Shown: piece by piece, positions 6,209 to 15,749 of the stretch
How positions within the stretch are numbered: position 1 is the stretch's first letter
How the letters are laid out: every line of letters begins with the position of its first letter
From: Aequorivita iocasae
GTDB taxonomy: Bacteria; Bacteroidota; Bacteroidia; Flavobacteriales; Flavobacteriaceae
Reading direction: 5' to 3'
Length of the DNA: 64,000 bases
Assembly (NCBI RefSeq): GCF_016757735.1
Contig: NZ_CP068439.1
Span: forward strand, 682,001-746,000
Notes under the pieces: model-generated
What the model saw: only the letters and a program-made list of their open reading frames with translations
What the model was told of the DNA's origin: nothing
Databases searched by the model: none
Position numbers and translations under genes: made by a program

Positions 6209-6259
6209 CCGTCCTTAATTATAACCGGGGTCGGGAACCCCAAAAATTAATTTTTAAAT

Positions 6260-6862
6260 ATGCCTGTAAAAATCAGACTACAAAGACACGGAAAGAAAGG
6301 TAAACCTTATTTCTGGATCATCGCGGCAGACAGCCGTTCAAAAAGAGATGGTAAATTCCTTGAAAAATTAGGATTTTACAATCCAACTACCAACCCTGCA
6401 CAGATTGACCTAGACGTTGACAGCGCTGTAAAATGGCTTCAAAACGGGGCTCAACCTACAGACACTGCCCGTGCTATTCTTTCTTACAAGGGAGCTTTAA
6501 TGAAAAATCACCTAGCTGGTGGGGTACGTAAAGGTGCTTTGACAGAAGAACAAGCTGAAGCAAAATTCAACGAGTGGCTGGAAAGCAAAAAAGGTGCAAT
6601 CGATCACAAAAAAGCAAGTCTTTCTGAAGCAAAGGAAAAAGAAAAAGCTGAAAAACTTGCTGCCGAAAAAGCCGTAAGCGAAAAACGTGCTGCTGAAGCC
6701 GCTGCCGCTGCCGCCCCTGCCGAAGAGAAAGCTACCGAGGAAAATTATGAAGGCGCTGCCGTAACTGAAGAAGGCGAACCAGAAGCTAACGTAACGAAAG
6801 AAGTAGAAGCGGAAACTGCCGAAGAGGCAAAAGCAGAGGAAAAGAAAGATTCAGAAGCGTAA
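6260..6862 (+). CDS. rpsP: 30S ribosomal protein S16 with long acidic/Ala-rich tail
   Basis: The first ~80 residues are a standard bS16 (start MPVKIRLQRHGKKGKPYFWI, then GFYNPT). The protein is 200 aa against about 80-90 in E. coli. Residues from ~115 on form a low-complexity charged helix rich in Ala, Glu and Lys (for example AAEAAAAAAPAEEKA). From family knowledge, Bacteroidota S16 often has such tails; the role is unknown. It is first in an operon, with rimM following 10 bp after the stop. This fits co-expression of S16 with the 16S maturation factor RimM. Confidence 0.96.
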   Translation: MPVKIRLQRHGKKGKPYFWIIAADSRSKRDGKFLEKLGFYNPTTNPAQIDLDVDSAVKWLQNGAQPTDTARAILSYKGALMKNHLAGGVRKGALTEEQAEAKFNEWLESKKGAIDHKKASLSEAKEKEKAEKLAAEKAVSEKRAAEAAAAAAPAEEKATEENYEGAAVTEEGEPEANVTKEVEAETAEEAKAEEKKDSEA

Positions 6863-8179: not shown

Positions 8180-8277
8180 TCTCCTATTCAATTTATCTTC
8201 AGCGCGCTCCACATAAAGATACCACCCCTCAATTCCAAATAAATTTATAGTTAACGCTTTTAAATTTTCAAATTTTC

Positions 8278-9279
8278 TTAATTAATGGCGGGACAGTTGC
8301 AATCGTATGGCTCGGGCCTTCCCCCCAGGAAGTCGTACCCCAGGGTGATCTGGTGGAAGCCGCCGCTCTCGAACCTTACGTTTCCAGCCTGGTACGAATA
8401 GGTATAGGCGAACATAAAGTTCTTGTAGTTCACCCCCAGGATGGGCGTGAACCACTGCAGCTTCTGCGCCTTTACCTCTTCGCCGTTTAGGTACTCGGCG
8501 CCATCCAAGCTTCTTCTGTACGATAAGCCCCCCCACAGCTGGCCGAAGTCCATCGCCCTATAGGCCTTGAAGTTCACGTCCACGGCCTGCTCGCCGGTAC
8601 GCTCCGCCCACTGGAAGAGGAACGAGGGCTCGTAGCTCCAGTCCGCGCCGTATCCGCCGATTGCGTATGCAGCGGAAACCAAGTATTTGCGCTGGTTGTT
8701 TGGCTCATATTTTTCAGTATAGATCGACCTATTCTGGAATATGATGTTCTTCACCGTAAAATGCCCCGAAAAATCCAGGAAGTTGTACGAAAGGCCCGCG
8801 TCCACATTAAAATAGGAGGTGCTCTGTATGATGCCGCCGATCACCGGGTCGAAATCCGAAAGGTCAAAATTGGTCTCGTCCAAGCGCGATTGGGTGAGCC
8901 CGGCGCTCAGGCCGAACGACAATTGGTTAAGGTCCGCCTCGCTTCTTGAAAACATAATATGGTGGGCATACGTTAGGTAACCCCCAGTCTGTGAATGATA
9001 ACCGTTTTGGTCATTATAGAATATAGCCCCTACGCCCGACCGTTGCCCAAGCCTTGCGTTAAAGCTCACCGTCTGCAGGTTTGGGGCTTCATCTTGATCG
9101 AACCACTGCTGCCTAGCCGTTAAGCGCAACTGATTGTGCGTTGCGGCACCAGCCATTGACGGATGCAGCAGATACAAATTATCCGAAAGATAGTCGGAAT
9201 ATACCGGAATGCCATCCTGGGAAAATCCATAAAGCGAGGTTAACAAAAGTAGGATAAGGGGGATTCGTTTTATGCTCAT
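8278..9279 (-). CDS. PorP/SprF family type IX secretion membrane protein
   Basis: A 333-aa outer-membrane beta-barrel of the PorP/SprF family. A signal peptide (MSIKRIPLILLLLTSLYGFSQ) precedes the typical YSDYLSDNLYLLHPSMAGA. Aromatic/glycine-rich strands such as LSFGLSAGL follow, and the C-terminal part ends FHQITLGYDFLGGR. The start is the ATG at 9279. A longer frame up to 9405 overlaps the upstream coding sequence and lacks a signal peptide. It follows the giant type B gene by only 8 bp. From family knowledge, type B CTD proteins are secreted with a dedicated SprF-like partner encoded next to them. The 3' third (8281-8680) is GC-rich like the adjacent repeat block. Confidence 0.9.
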   Translation of the reverse strand: MSIKRIPLILLLLTSLYGFSQDGIPVYSDYLSDNLYLLHPSMAGAATHNQLRLTARQQWFDQDEAPNLQTVSFNARLGQRSGVGAIFYNDQNGYHSQTGGYLTYAHHIMFSRSEADLNQLSFGLSAGLTQSRLDETNFDLSDFDPVIGGIIQSTSYFNVDAGLSYNFLDFSGHFTVKNIIFQNRSIYTEKYEPNNQRKYLVSAAYAIGGYGADWSYEPSFLFQWAERTGEQAVDVNFKAYRAMDFGQLWGGLSYRRSLDGAEYLNGEEVKAQKLQWFTPILGVNYKNFMFAYTYSYQAGNVRFESGGFHQITLGYDFLGGRPEPYDCNCPAIN

Positions 9280-9287
9280 AATTACTG

Positions 9288-12200
9288 TTATCGTTTTAGG
9301 GTAAAGTGTCCTTTGAATTCCTTGGCGGCGCCATCCTCGGTGTATTCCACACGGAACCAGTAATCGCTCGAGGGCATCAAGCTGCCGCCATAGGTGCCGT
9401 CCCATCCCGGGCCCAGCGGGCTCAGCTGTTTCAGCAGTTTCCCGAAACGGTCAAAGATATAGATCCTGGCGGCGGGATCGCCCGTGGCGATGCCGATTAT
9501 GTTCCAGGTGTCGTGATAGCCGTCCGCGTTCGGGGTAAAATAGGGCGGGTAATCTATCACGCCGACCTCCAGGGTAACGCTGCCGCAGCCATAGATGTCC
9601 TTGATCGTTATGGTGTGCGCCCCGGGGTCCACGTTCTCAAAGATGTTGCTGTCCTGGAAGGGCCCGTCGTCCAGTTGGTACACATAGGTGCCGTCGCCCG
9701 TGGCCGTGGCCTCAATGATATGGTTCCCCGCAAAGGCGCCGTTCAACAGGCTCGCCCCGTAGGTGAACGGCGGCGAGGAAACGGTGACGGTCGTACCGGC
9801 AGTGCCCTCACAGCCCGTCGCCAGCTCGGTATAGGAAACCGTATAGGCACCTCCCTGCAGCGCTATGATGGAAGGGCCGTTCTCGCCCACGAGGATCATA
9901 CCGTCGAGCTCCCAAACGAAGGAATACAGGGCCGGGTCAAGGCCCGTATCGATCACGGGGGGGGACGGGCTCCCCTCTTCCTCGGCAATGGGGTTCCCGT
10001 TCTCGTCCACGCAAAGGCGGTATTCGCCCTCAAGCAGGACCTCGGGCAGCTGCTCCACCTTAAGGATGACCTCCGCCACCGCATAGCACTGGGGCGAGAA
10101 GGGGTTGGCCGTATTGGTCACCCGCGCATAGATGCGCTGCGGGTTGATGATGTTCGTATAGGGGAAAGCGATGGCGGGAGCCCCCGCCTCTGCAGACCCC
10201 ACCGTCTCATGGAAGGTGATCTCATAGACCGCCGGATCCTGGCCCGCCAGGATCCCGGCGCGAAGGTCCGATACCTGCTGGCTGGAGAGATCGCCAAGGT
10301 CGAACTCGGCAAAACCGTCGCTGGGGGCCACGTTGTCACAGATCACGAAGGGCTCCGCCGGCGCGACCGCGACCGCACCCCGCTGGACAATGAGCTCAAA
10401 GCTCTGGAGCCCACCGATGTAGCAGCCCGTCTCAGTGTTCAATATGCCCGTATAGATAAGCTGCGGGTTGATCGGGTCATTGTTGGCGTCCTTGTTCTGG
10501 TGGGCGGTCGTATTCACGATCGCATTATCCCCGCTCTCCGCATCCGCCGGGTCCAGGTAGAAGCTTACCGCGAAAGGCGGCTGCGGCTGTCCGCCCAGGA
10601 TCTCCCCGACCTTGGTCTCCAGGTTGAAGACCCCGATCTCGCTATCGTCCGGCGCGCAGAGTATGTACGGCGACACCACGGCGGTATCGTCGGGCAAGGG
10701 GTTGACGATCAGCTCCAGCTCCACGATCTCAAAACAGAGCGAGGCGGCATTGGTGGTCCGCACATAAATGGTCTGGGGATTGGAGGTGTTCTGGTACGCG
10801 GTGAGCTCCGGCGCGACAATCTCCGCGTTCTGGTTGACGGCGTCGTCGTAGCTCTCATAGTAGCCAAGCGTCCAGCCGTTCCCGTTGAGTATCTGCGCCT
10901 CCCGAACCGTCAGGTCGAAAAGCTCGGTCTCATCGTAGGGGCCCGGGGGCACGATCACCGTCACGTCGCACAGTTCGATCGGGTCCGGGGCGACGGGGCT
11001 CGGGTTGGCCACCACGCTGATGGTAAGGGTGGTATAGGCGATACAGCCGCTGTTGCTGTCCTCCACGCGCACGTAGAGCACCTGCGGGTTCGAGGTGTTC
11101 GCATAGGCCGTATCGGGGTCGATCGGGTTCTGGCCCTCCTGCGCGTCCTGCTCCGTCTCAAAGTAGTGCACGCCCTGGGTGAGCACCCCGTTGGTGATCT
11201 CCGCATTGCGCGAGGTAAGGTCGAAAAGGGCGGTGCCGTCAAAGGGAACGCCCAGGTCATCGCACTTGGCCCAGGGCTCGGGATCGGTTATCGGGAGGCC
11301 CTCGGTGACCACCAGGTCAAAACTGCCCACCTTGTAGCAGCCCGAGGCGGTATCGGCCAGCCGCACCCAGATGGTCTGCGGGTTGGAGGTGTTGGTATAG
11401 CTCTCGGGCTGCGCGATGAACGGCGTGCCGGCCTCGGCGTCAGCCCGGCTCAAGTGGTAGGTAACCGTAAAATCGTCCGGGTCCTGGCCGCCCAGGACCA
11501 GGTCCTCGTTCTCGCGGAGGTTGAACTCATGGAAGCCGCCCTGGTCACAGGCGGTAAGGTCCGGCAGGTCCTGCGGCAGCTCGGGGCTCTGCGCCACCAC
11601 AAGCTCCATCTCAAGGACCGTGTAGCAGCCCGTGCCCGCCGGCGGTGCGGCAAAGGCAGCCCGTACATACAATGTCTGGTTGAAGAGCACGATGTTCTGG
11701 TAGGGGCTCGTCAAGGCGTACTGGCCGTTCACAGCGTCCAGACGCGTCTCGTGGAAGGTGACCGCCAGGGTCGGGTCCCCGCCCTGTATCTCGGCAATCT
11801 TGCTGTCGAGATCAAACTGGGTAATGCCGTCATTGTCCACATCGCAGCCGAACAGGGGCGAGGGCTGCACGGGCTCCGGGTTGGGAAGGACGGTAATAAA
11901 AAAGCTCTCGGCCGCCCGGCAGCTGTTCTGACCGGCGATCGACACGAAGATCTCCTGCTGCGGGACCACCACGTTCTGGTAGGCGCCCGGGGCCGCGATC
12001 GGGATATCGTTGTCCAGGTCACCCTGGCTGGCATAGTACAGCACCGTAAGGGTCGGGTCGCCGCCCAATATCAGCGGGGTGTTCTGCGTAAGGTCGAAGG
12101 TCGAGACGCCGTCGTCACCGGTGCTCCCGTTGAGCTCGTCGTCGCAGGCCTCCAGGTCGAGCGGGCTCCCGTGGACGGGGAAGGCGCCTACCTCGAGCTG

Positions 12201-15200
12201 GAACTCCGTGATGCGCACGCAGCCCGTGACCGCGCTCTCCAGGCGCACCCAGATGGGCTGGCCCGCGCTCGGGAAGGCACCGGCGGGATCGATAGGGTTG
12301 GCCCCGGCCTGGGCGGCCACAAGGTCCGTATAATAGGTAACGGGAAGAAAGTCCCCGGGATCCTGGGCCCCATAGACCGATGCGTCCTGGGCCGTCAGAT
12401 CGAAGATGGCCTGGCCGTCGCCGTCAAGGTCGCACACCAGGTACGGGTCCATAAAGGTCGCGTCCGGGGCATCGGGCAACGGGACCACGATGAGCTGCAG
12501 CTCCACGAGGGCATAGCAGTCCGTGCTCACGTTCTCCACGCGTGCCCATACGGAGTCGCTGAAGGGGTCGTCGTTCGTGTAGAGGAAGGGCGCGATGATC
12601 TCACCGGGGCCACCGGCCTCCGCCAGCGCACGCTCCGGAAAGTACCGGACCACTACCCCGGGCTCCCCGTTGATGATCTCAGCGGTACGCAGGCTAAGGT
12701 CGAACTCGGCAAAACCGCCCCCCTGGTCGCAAAGCTCCAAGGGCTCCGGCTGCGCCGGGGTGGGCAACGATTCCACTACCAGGGTCAGGGTCACGAGATC
12801 CCTGCAGCCGAAACCGTTCGAGAGACGGGCCACCACCGTCTGGGCATTGGATATGTTCTGGTAGGCGCCCGGGACCGCGATGGGGAGGTCCGCCGCCTCG
12901 TCGGCAGGGGTCTCGAACCACGTAACCAAAAGACCGGGAACCCCGCCCGAGACCTCAAGGTCACGCGTGGTAAGGTCGAAGGTGCTTATCTGGTCCGTGG
13001 GCGTGCTACCGTTGAGCTCGTCGTCGCAAAGACGGTAGTCCGCCGGCTCGACGGCCGTGGGCGCAGGGTCCACGATAAGCTGAAGCGGCACGATATCGTA
13101 GCAGCCGCTGGCACCGTTGTTGGGAGTGGTGTTGGCAGCCGTGCCCACCCCCAGCACGTAAATGGTCTGGGAATTGGGCGTGGCATTGGTATAAGAGCCC
13201 GGATTGCCGATGGCAAGCGAAAAATCCGGCGCCGTAAGGGCAGCCATACCCGCATCGATCGCGTCCTGCTCCTGCTGGTAGAAGTAAAGGTCGTAGCGCA
13301 GGGGGTCCAGACCGTTGAGAACCTCCGAGCGCTTGGCGTTGAGATCGAAAACCTCGAAACCGTCACCGTCACCGTCGCAGAGACGGTAAGGCGTGGGCTC
13401 GGTCAGGACAGGGCTGTCACGGACCTCGAGCAAAAGCTCAACGATGGCATAGCAGCTGGTGGTAGTGCTCTCCACGCGCGCCCAGACACGGTCGTCGTAA
13501 GGGTTGATGTTCACGAACGGGTCCAAAAGCTCGTTCTCGTCCGTCTGCGCGTCAAGGTACGTGTAGTGGTAGGTCACCGTGAGGGCAGGATCGCCGCCCG
13601 TAATGGCAAGATCAGCGTCATGGAGGGTGAACTCCGTATACCCGTCACTGTCAGGATCGCACGAAACCAAAGGATCCGGAGGGGTGTTAGCAATGGGGGG
13701 TGAATCTACGATTATTACAATGGTGGTAGTGTCAAAACAATTTATATCTATAACAGGCTCAATTCTTGCATAAATAGTTTGTCCAGGAACTGGAACTGTG
13801 TATAAATCTGGCAATGGATTGATTCGCATATCGGCATCGTTCTGAGAAATATGATATGAGATATTGTACGCGGCTGCATTTTGACCATTTAAAATTGTTG
13901 CATTAAACTGAACAGGTAGGTTTATTTCTTCACCCCCATTGCCATCTTGATCGCAAGTTGTAAATGGCGGCACAGTATGCGCTTCAACAGGAGTAAAATA
14001 TATCTCAAATTGAGCGAGGTCATAACAGAACTCTTGTGCCCTATCATGAATACGGACATAGATAGTTTGTTGAGGAGGAGTAGCAATGGGATATGCGCCC
14101 GGGTTAGGTATGGCATTAACATTATTTTCGCTATCTGCTTGTGTGGTGAAATATTTTACTTCAAAAACAGTGGGATCTTGTCCTCCTAAAACGTTTTCAT
14201 CATTCTGTGTAAGATTAAAAATTCCAGTATGTGCTCCATTATCACAACGAAAAAGATCAGCCGGAGTATTAGCGATTGGCTGTGGACTAAAGTTAACGAC
14301 AAATGCCGGTGATTCTGAGACAAAGCAAGCTGCCTTAGTTCCGCTTACGGTATAGATTCCTGACTGGGTAACTTGAAGTGTTGGGGTATTGCCACCAATA
14401 GGGTTTCCATTAATGAACCAGTTATAAACATCCAAATCGTTAAAATTAGCAGTTAAGGTTTCGGTTCTGCCCTCACAGCTTTGGTTGTTGCCCAAAATTA
14501 ACAAGCCTTGCTGCGAAAGGTCTATGTTCTGTGAATATTCGTTATTGCCTTCATCGGTTTCCAAAACCACACCATTACCAGTTCCGTCGTCATCTACGAC
14601 GGCTCTTAAGGTAAATAGCTGTGGAGTTCCCAACGGTATATTCAAATTAATCGTTCCGCTTTCAGTACCATCTATAGGGATGTCATTAACTGTCTGGGCT
14701 TGACCTAACAATACTGCATCGGCATAAAAGGCGATAGGTGTGTTGGCGGGCAAAACTGCTGTGCTGTTGAAATTTGCGACAGTATATTCAACCTCCATAT
14801 TCCTATCTTGACAAAGCACACCAATATTGTCTATTACGATTGTGGCATCCGGAAGCTCCGAATTTACGCTCACAATAATATTGTTTACCATAATAAAATC
14901 TTGACCAGAACTTAGTTGGATATCTATCTGGTCGTCTCCCGGCTCTATGATATTCAACCCCTGAAGATCGTAATAATCCAGATCCATATTATACAACAAT
15001 TCTGAATTGGTATAGCTATTGGTACCGTTAAAAGCATTATTGCCAGGATTAAGAGGGGGATTATCTATAAGGATATTGTTAAGTCTGAGACTTTCATTTA
15101 TGTCGATGCCCCGGTCACCTTCCCAAGCCAAGAAGCCTATCTTGGCTGCTTGATCTGAAGCAGCATTTATATTTCCGAGAACAATATTTATATCATTATT

Positions 15201-15749
15201 ATTTCTATCTACATAATCTAAGCCATCAAACAAGGTTATTTGGTTTAGTAATAAGGATGGATCTTCATAAATAACAATAATGGCCCAACCACCAAAATTT
15301 GTACCGCCAGCGCAATAGGGACCTATAGCGCCGGTTAAATCAAGGTTAGAAAGTGTATAGAGTCCTTGTCCATTAAAAGCAACAAGATTGGTAACATCTG
15401 CATAAGCCGAAAAATAGGTTAATCCTGTATTAGCAGTTAATGAAAAAGTACGCTGGGCTGTTATATTTGTACCATTGAGAGTAACATTAAAATCACCACT
15501 TCCCGGACCTGACCAGTAAAGATGGGCAGAGACAAAAGTTTGCGTAGGGCTTAATTGAAAATCTGCACTACTTTGGGTTAAAATTGTACAGTTTGAGAAA
15601 GTCCCATTTTCTTCCGTATTCAGCGTATTTCCAAAGGCAGTAAAATCATAGCGACCATTAAATTGCAAATAACGAGATATTGGAACAACTTGTGAAAAAA
15701 TCAATAGGGGCATCAAAAAAATTAAGATAGAGAGTAGAAGTTTTTTCAT
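9288..15749 (-). CDS. Giant modular T9SS type B surface protein (gliding-motility-associated C-terminal domain)
   Basis: A 2,153-aa secreted protein. A signal peptide occupies residues 1-20. An N-terminal region of about 420 aa resembles a lectin-like/beta-sandwich segment (HLYWSGPGSGDF, GGWAIIVIYED), and an adhesin-like stretch follows to about 490. About 14 tandem modules of ~90 aa plus one degenerate copy then run to about 1,900. Each module starts with a Cys-Asp phrase (CDxDGDG, CDDELNGS) and F-D-L, contains IxGxDP and NPQTIYVRVE, and ends GCYxxxxLxLxV. The type B sorting domain closes the protein (YFTPNADGYHDTWNI to FKGHFTLKR). DxDxDG phrases suggest calcium binding. The first ~680 residues are encoded by AT-rich DNA, the rest by GC-rich DNA. 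Likely a surface adhesin; the ligand is unknown. Confidence 0.93.
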   Translation of the reverse strand: MKKLLLSILIFLMPLLIFSQVVPISRYLQFNGRYDFTAFGNTLNTEENGTFSNCTILTQSSADFQLSPTQTFVSAHLYWSGPGSGDFNVTLNGTNITAQRTFSLTANTGLTYFSAYADVTNLVAFNGQGLYTLSNLDLTGAIGPYCAGGTNFGGWAIIVIYEDPSLLLNQITLFDGLDYVDRNNNDINIVLGNINAASDQAAKIGFLAWEGDRGIDINESLRLNNILIDNPPLNPGNNAFNGTNSYTNSELLYNMDLDYYDLQGLNIIEPGDDQIDIQLSSGQDFIMVNNIIVSVNSELPDATIVIDNIGVLCQDRNMEVEYTVANFNSTAVLPANTPIAFYADAVLLGQAQTVNDIPIDGTESGTINLNIPLGTPQLFTLRAVVDDDGTGNGVVLETDEGNNEYSQNIDLSQQGLLILGNNQSCEGRTETLTANFNDLDVYNWFINGNPIGGNTPTLQVTQSGIYTVSGTKAACFVSESPAFVVNFSPQPIANTPADLFRCDNGAHTGIFNLTQNDENVLGGQDPTVFEVKYFTTQADSENNVNAIPNPGAYPIATPPQQTIYVRIHDRAQEFCYDLAQFEIYFTPVEAHTVPPFTTCDQDGNGGEEINLPVQFNATILNGQNAAAYNISYHISQNDADMRINPLPDLYTVPVPGQTIYARIEPVIDINCFDTTTIVIIVDSPPIANTPPDPLVSCDPDSDGYTEFTLHDADLAITGGDPALTVTYHYTYLDAQTDENELLDPFVNINPYDDRVWARVESTTTSCYAIVELLLEVRDSPVLTEPTPYRLCDGDGDGFEVFDLNAKRSEVLNGLDPLRYDLYFYQQEQDAIDAGMAALTAPDFSLAIGNPGSYTNATPNSQTIYVLGVGTAANTTPNNGASGCYDIVPLQLIVDPAPTAVEPADYRLCDDELNGSTPTDQISTFDLTTRDLEVSGGVPGLLVTWFETPADEAADLPIAVPGAYQNISNAQTVVARLSNGFGCRDLVTLTLVVESLPTPAQPEPLELCDQGGGFAEFDLSLRTAEIINGEPGVVVRYFPERALAEAGGPGEIIAPFLYTNDDPFSDSVWARVENVSTDCYALVELQLIVVPLPDAPDATFMDPYLVCDLDGDGQAIFDLTAQDASVYGAQDPGDFLPVTYYTDLVAAQAGANPIDPAGAFPSAGQPIWVRLESAVTGCVRITEFQLEVGAFPVHGSPLDLEACDDELNGSTGDDGVSTFDLTQNTPLILGGDPTLTVLYYASQGDLDNDIPIAAPGAYQNVVVPQQEIFVSIAGQNSCRAAESFFITVLPNPEPVQPSPLFGCDVDNDGITQFDLDSKIAEIQGGDPTLAVTFHETRLDAVNGQYALTSPYQNIVLFNQTLYVRAAFAAPPAGTGCYTVLEMELVVAQSPELPQDLPDLTACDQGGFHEFNLRENEDLVLGGQDPDDFTVTYHLSRADAEAGTPFIAQPESYTNTSNPQTIWVRLADTASGCYKVGSFDLVVTEGLPITDPEPWAKCDDLGVPFDGTALFDLTSRNAEITNGVLTQGVHYFETEQDAQEGQNPIDPDTAYANTSNPQVLYVRVEDSNSGCIAYTTLTISVVANPSPVAPDPIELCDVTVIVPPGPYDETELFDLTVREAQILNGNGWTLGYYESYDDAVNQNAEIVAPELTAYQNTSNPQTIYVRTTNAASLCFEIVELELIVNPLPDDTAVVSPYILCAPDDSEIGVFNLETKVGEILGGQPQPPFAVSFYLDPADAESGDNAIVNTTAHQNKDANNDPINPQLIYTGILNTETGCYIGGLQSFELIVQRGAVAVAPAEPFVICDNVAPSDGFAEFDLGDLSSQQVSDLRAGILAGQDPAVYEITFHETVGSAEAGAPAIAFPYTNIINPQRIYARVTNTANPFSPQCYAVAEVILKVEQLPEVLLEGEYRLCVDENGNPIAEEEGSPSPPVIDTGLDPALYSFVWELDGMILVGENGPSIIALQGGAYTVSYTELATGCEGTAGTTVTVSSPPFTYGASLLNGAFAGNHIIEATATGDGTYVYQLDDGPFQDSNIFENVDPGAHTITIKDIYGCGSVTLEVGVIDYPPYFTPNADGYHDTWNIIGIATGDPAARIYIFDRFGKLLKQLSPLGPGWDGTYGGSLMPSSDYWFRVEYTEDGAAKEFKGHFTLKR
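9306..13703 (-). repeat. GC-rich block of tandem ~90-residue modules with biased codon use
   Basis: Within the giant gene this stretch encodes modules 3-15 and the sorting domain. It is far richer in G+C than anything else in the window. The complementary strand is open in exact codon register over the whole interval. The gene therefore uses no TTA, CTA or TCA codon for about 1,465 codons, although Leu TTA and Ser TCA are common in neighbouring genes. Composition returns to the AT-rich norm just past 13,690, near the junction between modules 2 and 3. Modules share the order Cys-Asp-rich turn, FDL, IxGxDP, YxNxxNPQTIYVR, GCY. Confidence 0.85.

Follow-up and report, generated by a model that had tools for sequence, protein, structure and literature searches.

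The window analyzed here is a stretch of 64,000 nucleotides from the chromosome of the marine bacterium Aequorivita iocasae (NZ_CP068439.1, positions 682,001 to 746,000), which contains a gene for a giant cell-surface adhesin, open over 2,153 codons, and, directly downstream, a porP gene coding for a PorP/SprF-family outer membrane protein (Table 1). The closest named relatives of the locus come from Aequorivita (Flavobacteriaceae). The adhesin bears the signature of a type-B cargo of the type IX secretion system (T9SS), namely, a TIGR04131 sorting domain with an adjacent PorP/SprF gene. The pairing of such cargo with a PorP-like protein is a known partnership, and surface exposure and binding of the cargo by the PorP partner are known for SprB/SprF and PG1035/PorP (PMC9143113). 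The sequence features fit a surface protein for which the PorP/SprF protein is the predicted type-B cargo partner. Part of the adhesin gene is strikingly GC rich; we found that this part belongs to a tract shared with a second, paralogous adhesin gene, and its composition is probably a product of GC-biased gene conversion between the two.

The G+C content of 500-bp windows is 0.57 to 0.66 across approximately 9,250 to 13,750, as against 0.37 to 0.43 in the 5′ part of the gene, and it peaks within the block at 0.62 to 0.66, up from about 0.39. This peak lies about 7 standard deviations (SD) above the chromosome mean (862 kb sampled from the same chromosome; 1-kb GC mean, 0.389; SD, 0.038). The maximum-likelihood change-point in G+C content at third codon positions (GC3) falls at codon 701 (2-lnL range, 693 to 722; likelihood ratio, 547), with a GC3 of 0.31 before it and 0.82 after it. 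Both C and G are raised at the third positions of the tract (C, 47%; G, 34%; T, 15%; A, 3%), and TTA, CTA and TCA together account for one codon there, a CTA adjoining the stop, versus about 42 predicted from the codon shares of the host. The initial annotation had described a sharp change in GC and codon use within one open frame, a near absence of these three codons, a complementary strand open in codon register from 9306 to 13703 and a breakpoint at a module boundary. Each of these was borne out, the last at the junction of modules M2 and M3. An antisense gene in the complementary frame was considered and rejected, as there is no sign of one. The homologous GC-rich tracts mostly have broken, shorter antisense-open runs and the counts of TTA, CTA and TCA drop as GC3 climbs, so the antisense open frame is a by-product of the scarcity of A-ending codons.

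The unit to which the block belongs is larger than the adhesin segment initially annotated. Positions 8273 to 13692 of the window match, at every one of 5,420 bp, a second site on the same single-contig 3.35-Mb chromosome (designated C1 of G000, the genome under study), in the opposite orientation and about 740 kb off. The duplicated unit comprises 12 modules, the sorting domain and porP and ends a few bases past the porP stop. The step that had been described is real, but its true limits coincide with the ends of a perfect duplication that includes porP; the composition step is the edge of the duplicated unit. At the second site (locus A, 1.43 Mb; the copy in the window is locus B), another AT-rich 5′ part precedes the tract. 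The two loci lie in different, conserved gene neighborhoods, that of locus A being conserved across the genus. We also considered whether the GC-rich part of locus A begins upstream of the identity limit and discarded this, as the extra antisense-open stretch there is AT rich and the position of the step is the same in the two copies.

Table 1. Features of the adhesin locus, in positions of the window
Feature	Position	Strand	Remarks
Giant cell-surface adhesin gene, 2,153 aa	9288..15749	-	Signal peptide-like N terminus, unique N-terminal region with CARDB domain, 14 modules of ~100 aa, type-B T9SS sorting domain
Adhesin domain matches			TIGR04131, 7.4e-34; PF13585, 6.6e-11; PF07705, 1.5e-5
Unique AT-rich 5′ part, GC3 0.31	13693..15749	-	Includes M1 (GC3 0.22) and M2 (GC3 0.26)
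Homogenized tract, 5,420 bp	8273..13692	-	100.000% identical to G000:C1:1430506-1435925 (L016:7507-12926); GC3 of adhesin part, 0.82
Modules M3 to M14 (12), GC3 0.74-0.88	10041..13688	-	~95-117 aa each, two invariant cysteines
Type-B T9SS C-terminal sorting domain, residues 2065-2153	9291..9557	-	
PorP/SprF-family outer membrane protein gene (porP), GC3 0.68	8278..9279	-	TIGR03519, 8e-56; PF11751, 2.5e-68; entirely within tract
Antisense open frame	9306..13703	+	Not a gene

A comparison of 27 Aequorivita genomes with a readable locus placed this pair in a wider context. Two near-identical copies are present in G016 (99.6% over 6,986 bp, single contig; 28 differences), in G002 (97.8% over 5,397 bp, single contig; 117 differences) and in the draft genome G003 (99.7% over 3,962 bp; 11 differences). 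In most drafts, contigs end at the tract edges and the tract forms a separate short contig, like a collapsed repeat. When GC3 is computed per 75 codons, 13 of the 14 homogenized genomes have values of about 0.5 to 0.9 within the tract and 0.2 to 0.35 in the unique 5′ parts, with the 14th, G009, being intermediate in its tract (about 0.45). The genomes that are AT rich throughout (GC3, 0.15 to 0.45) are the single-copy G001, G013, G020 and G022 and two with diverged copies, G015 and G023. Over the C-terminal 253 residues, GC3 separates homogenized from nonhomogenized genomes with a one-sided Mann-Whitney P value of 9e-5, kinship being ignored. No GC-rich version of the adhesin was found in a single-copy species among the Aequorivita genomes compared. 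GC richness is predicted by the near-identity of the copies and not by protein length, module type or the mere presence of a paralogue.

Copies within a genome are 97.8 to 100% identical, versus about 67 to 79% between most species, and copies from the same genome are always neighbors in trees. Paralogues are thus closer to each other than to their orthologues, which is the mark of concerted evolution. The exception in scale is the close sister G010, whose tract is 97% identical to that of G000; this is unremarkable because the flanks of the two are themselves 93 to 96% identical, the lower value of dnaE (0.877) being due to the fragmented dnaE in the G010 metagenome-assembled genome (MAG).

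Some further features of these loci were noted in passing. In the G010 MAG (L044, L046), the N-terminal portion from locus A continues into the downstream flank of locus B, which reflects either assembly confusion through the repeat or real exchange between loci. In G002 (L049, L050, L051), the adhesin copies lie at locus B and a third site, and locus A has a porP gene without an adhesin; the exchanging locus pair therefore differs between species. In G026 (L160), GC3 over the first 150 codons is 0.55 and 0.41 beside a contig break and 0.2 to 0.3 beyond, perhaps indicating a short or young shared tract. In short-read assemblies, the tract is often a small, high-coverage lone contig, e.g., L066 (NODE_24_length_6820_cov_595), L103 (cov_655) and L090 (cov_372), and the adhesin genes are therefore systematically broken and underannotated in databases.

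In five genomes, the limits of composition match those of homology, lying on or near the tract edge. GC3 change-points fitted blind to the second copy coincide with the tract start (0 codons apart) in both G016 genes; they are displaced from it by 0 and 10 codons in G025 and by 1 to 2 codons in G003, and in G000, the change-point lies 15 codons into the tract. In G002, the identity of the copies per 150 columns (0.65, 0.76, 0.84 and 0.99) parallels their GC (0.38, 0.44, 0.48 and 0.65), and the two drop jointly at the 3′ end. The porP gene behaves as a passenger: its GC3 is 0.61 to 0.76 where the tract covers it (G000, G010 and G025) and 0.28 to 0.45 elsewhere, and it lies outside the tract in most other genomes, including G016, G002 and G003. 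The proteins encoded by GC-rich and AT-rich porP genes are up to 92% identical (G000 versus G005), and among third-position differences between these two genes that leave the amino acid unchanged, 133 are toward G/C in G000 and 18 in the opposite direction (P = 7e-23). As a control, two AT-rich single-copy genes compared in the C-terminal region gave 42:41. Amino acid replacements are affected as well; those in the C-terminal 253 residues lean toward Gly, Ala, Arg and Pro in the GC-rich forms by approximately 3 to 5 to 1. A dome-shaped GC profile was looked for as a mark of conversion, but it is only faint, with porP rising toward the 3′ edge, and was not used.

On the basis of these observations, we consider it quite probable that the GC-rich block represents the 3′ tract that two paralogous adhesin genes have in common and that undergoes concerted evolution by GC-biased gene conversion. 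Under such a mechanism, a new mutation in one copy would produce a mismatch when the copies pair, and repair of the heteroduplex would favor G or C, with the corrected base spreading to both copies. Over time, the convertible sites of the tract would be driven to G/C, synonymous sites most of all, and the unique 5′ parts, lacking a conversion partner, would remain at the AT-rich equilibrium of the host; the boundary of composition would thus coincide with that of shared homology at the module junction. Directly observed are the identity of the copies, the agreement of the boundaries, the association across the genus, the orthologous relationship between GC-rich and AT-rich forms and the opposition to preferred codons. 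From these, we infer that the copies stay alike through gene conversion and not through repeated reduplication and that the direction is set by biased repair and not by biased mutation or by selection. Thirteen of the 14 tracts are richer in G+C than the six nonhomogenized genomes and than the unique 5′ parts, and the shift spans both synonymous and amino acid-changing sites and runs against the codon preference of ribosomal protein genes. The GC3 log-odds between the inside and the outside of the tract are 1.7 to 2.6 in five genomes, which would be the scaled strength of the bias if both values are equilibria. Published rates of ectopic conversion in bacteria, approximately 1e-4 to 1e-7 per site per generation (PMC8223754), combined with large bacterial populations, would make a bias of this strength possible. 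Somewhat more tentatively, though still on balance, we favor the broader view that GC-biased conversion can be strong enough in a bacterium to lift GC3 from about 0.3 to 0.8 to 0.9 in one gene wherever an ectopic partner exists, in which case the adhesin pairs would amount to a natural experiment demonstrating biased bacterial conversion and setting it apart from selection and mutation.

The background of the genome and other genera bear on how general this might be. In the 862 kb sampled from G000, 1-kb windows above 0.52 GC belong to the tract, an rRNA operon and multicopy transposase/insertion sequence copies. Multicopy DNA in general is thus the GC-rich DNA of this genome, which lends biased conversion only faint support, as other reasons exist for transposons and rRNA. 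Two of its multicopy transposase-like genes are GC richer than the genome: one (L346:4497-6062; 521 aa; GC3, 0.64) has at least three copies that are 99.6 to 99.9% identical and another (L346:1878-2933; 351 aa; GC3, 0.55) has two copies that are 98.4% identical. In Luteirhabdus, two 5′ ends share 752 bp (96.7%), with a GC3 of 0.88 to 0.95 there and 0.21 to 0.39 outside. Altibacter shows a weaker step, its copies being 98.1% identical over 4,450 bp with a GC3 of about 0.53 inside versus about 0.35 outside, and in Thermobacterium and two MAGs, the same region has a GC3 of about 0.9. MAGs labeled Legionellaceae, Gammaproteobacteria and Cyclobacteriaceae (L079, L083 and L084) contain flavobacterial adhesin contigs and are probably misbinned; L079 has a sharp GC step.

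Several points weigh against GC-biased conversion as the explanation. Foremost, the homogenized, contig-collapsed relatives in Ulvibacter litoralis, Bizionia, Lacinutrix, Flavobacterium and Aquaticitalea are AT rich (GC3, 0.22 to 0.28), and homogenization alone is therefore not sufficient. No other gap in the account is as serious, and to bridge it one would have to assume slower conversion, more recent duplication or an absence of repair bias in these cases. Within Aequorivita, the evidence for duplication in draft genomes consists of contigs breaking at the edges of the tract, and the phylogenetically independent pairs number only three, each differing as expected (sign test, P = 0.25). Lastly, polarized differences between copies amount to 18 from G or C to A or T (S to W) versus 14 in the reverse direction (W to S); these are too few and too uncertain to separate repair bias from mutation bias, the outgroups are partly distant, and the counts do not display the AT-biased mutational input that the model leads one to expect and are compatible with a W-to-S mutation bias.

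These counts bear directly on the alternative that survives best, a recombination-associated mutation bias, in which repair synthesis within the tract adds A/T-to-G/C mutations without any bias in the strand that is kept. It makes predictions for boundaries and composition identical to those of biased conversion, and 14 W-to-S against 18 S-to-W differences in a tract that is about 64% GC amount to a higher rate per W site. Nevertheless, the counts are small, polarity is unreliable given that the G016 and G002 outgroups are 17 to 33% diverged, and spontaneous mutation is AT biased in the bacteria studied (PMC2936529, PMC4450053), so that we regard this explanation as unlikely.

Import from a GC-rich relative, one of the origins proposed in the initial annotation, would require that a cassette from a GC-rich donor replaced the 3′ ends of both genes and that the GC-rich forms spread among species. 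The sharp boundary at a module junction is what import would leave, and since the C-terminal protein tree departs from the species tree in some details, interspecies exchange is probable; moreover, as a further point against biased conversion, a single GC-rich clade is formally still compatible with the protein data (approximately unbiased [AU] test, P = 0.083). However, in the best C-terminal protein tree, which is 20 log-likelihood units above one with a single GC-rich clade, GC-rich and AT-rich rows interleave. Modules M3 to M14 are collinear, one-to-one orthologues of the modules of the AT-rich, single-copy G022 (62 to 84% amino acid identity), and porP inside the tract encodes a protein 92% identical to AT-rich congeneric orthologues, with its synonymous differences running 133:18 toward G/C. 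The limits of the tract also vary by species, as noted for porP. No GC-rich donor was found among 77 loci, in which the closest relatives are congeneric and include AT-rich orthologues. Import is thus not supported and appears quite improbable, and a sharp intragenic GC step is no proof of horizontal transfer.

Selection for GC-rich codons or GC content in the shared tract, whether for expression, mRNA structure or secretion of a huge protein, is very unlikely. The gene is indeed large and its product secreted, and selection on GC can mimic biased conversion, but full-length orthologous adhesins of 2,800 codons are AT rich in single-copy species, the bias ends within the gene at the homology edge, porP is affected only when duplicated, and amino acids are altered too. 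The codon use of the tract is moreover anticorrelated with that of ribosomal protein genes (r = -0.41; e.g., GAG, 93% versus 26%; CAG, 98% versus 25%), which speaks against the earlier suggestion of codon selection for translation.

An artifact of assembly or read polishing that created two identical copies and a chimeric gene is highly improbable. A misresolved repeat would likewise yield an exact identity of 5.4 kb, but the assembly is a single contig with the copies in different conserved gene contexts, the copies are nonidentical in G016, G002 and G003, the drafts break at the tract edges as at real repeats, and the composition step is independent of the exactness of the second copy. A chimera at 13.69 kb is unlikely because the same architecture recurs in other single-contig genomes at their own loci. 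Expansion of a single GC-rich founder module can be dismissed almost outright, for although all GC-rich units are modules of one kind, they are only 24 to 49% identical to one another, each being far closer to its own AT-rich G022 orthologue, and porP and the sorting domain share their composition. The earlier argument that a cut near a module boundary favors recombination or expansion thus stands for recombination and falls for founder expansion; it had missed the identical second copy and the genus-wide link.

As for the modules themselves, no Pfam family was found for the unit of about 100 aa with two invariant cysteines (window positions 10041 to 14270). Its structural model is a compact mixed α/β unit (predicted local distance difference test score [pLDDT], 94.7) for which there is no close PDB match, the best folds being Ig-like but weak (E = 0.02) and a PKD-like resemblance being likewise weak. 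Elsewhere in the window, an S16-Flavobacteria ribosomal protein leader (6218 to 6251, plus strand) lies 5′ of a long rpsP gene (6260 to 6862).

Concerted evolution via gene conversion has been described for tuf in Salmonella, nifH in Rhizobium and rRNA operons (reviewed in PMC8223754). As in those systems, distant paralogous segments are near-identical within species and diverged between species, and the unique flanks are not homogenized. Here, in contrast, the tract spans 5 to 7 kb, where single events in those systems cover a few hundred bases, lies on the shared part of otherwise different surface protein genes and shows a large shift in base composition restricted to it. GC-biased gene conversion in bacteria has been proposed (Lassalle et al. 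2015; PMC4450053) and contested (Hildebrand et al. 2010, PMC2936529; Ely 2021, PMC8153448). Common to the proposal and the present case are a higher G+C content of recombining than of nonrecombining DNA of the same genome, an effect at synonymous sites and its direction against optimal codons (PMC4450053). The published evidence is a modest genome-wide correlation concerning alleles of different strains, whereas the adhesins offer a within-gene contrast between ectopic copies, in which GC3 steps from 0.31 to 0.82 at an edge located to the nucleotide and single-copy congeners serve as controls. We found no description of gene conversion in T9SS adhesins or of GC-biased conversion between bacterial paralogues in the open-access literature; the elements are already known, and it is their combination as a base-resolved, internally controlled bacterial contrast that we did not find described. 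This large candidate signal sits inside single genes, with a base-defined boundary, and comes with controls in the unique 5′ parts, the single-copy congeners and the porP passenger, making the question of GC-biased conversion testable in culturable species. With regard to the adhesin, the closest parallel is the SprB/SprF pair of Flavobacterium johnsoniae (PMC9143113), with which it shares a type-B sorting domain, a long repetitive stalk and a PorP-family gene directly downstream; unlike SprB/SprF, it has other repeat modules, and one identical cassette, made up of stalk, sorting domain and partner gene, is present twice, behind two unrelated N-terminal parts.

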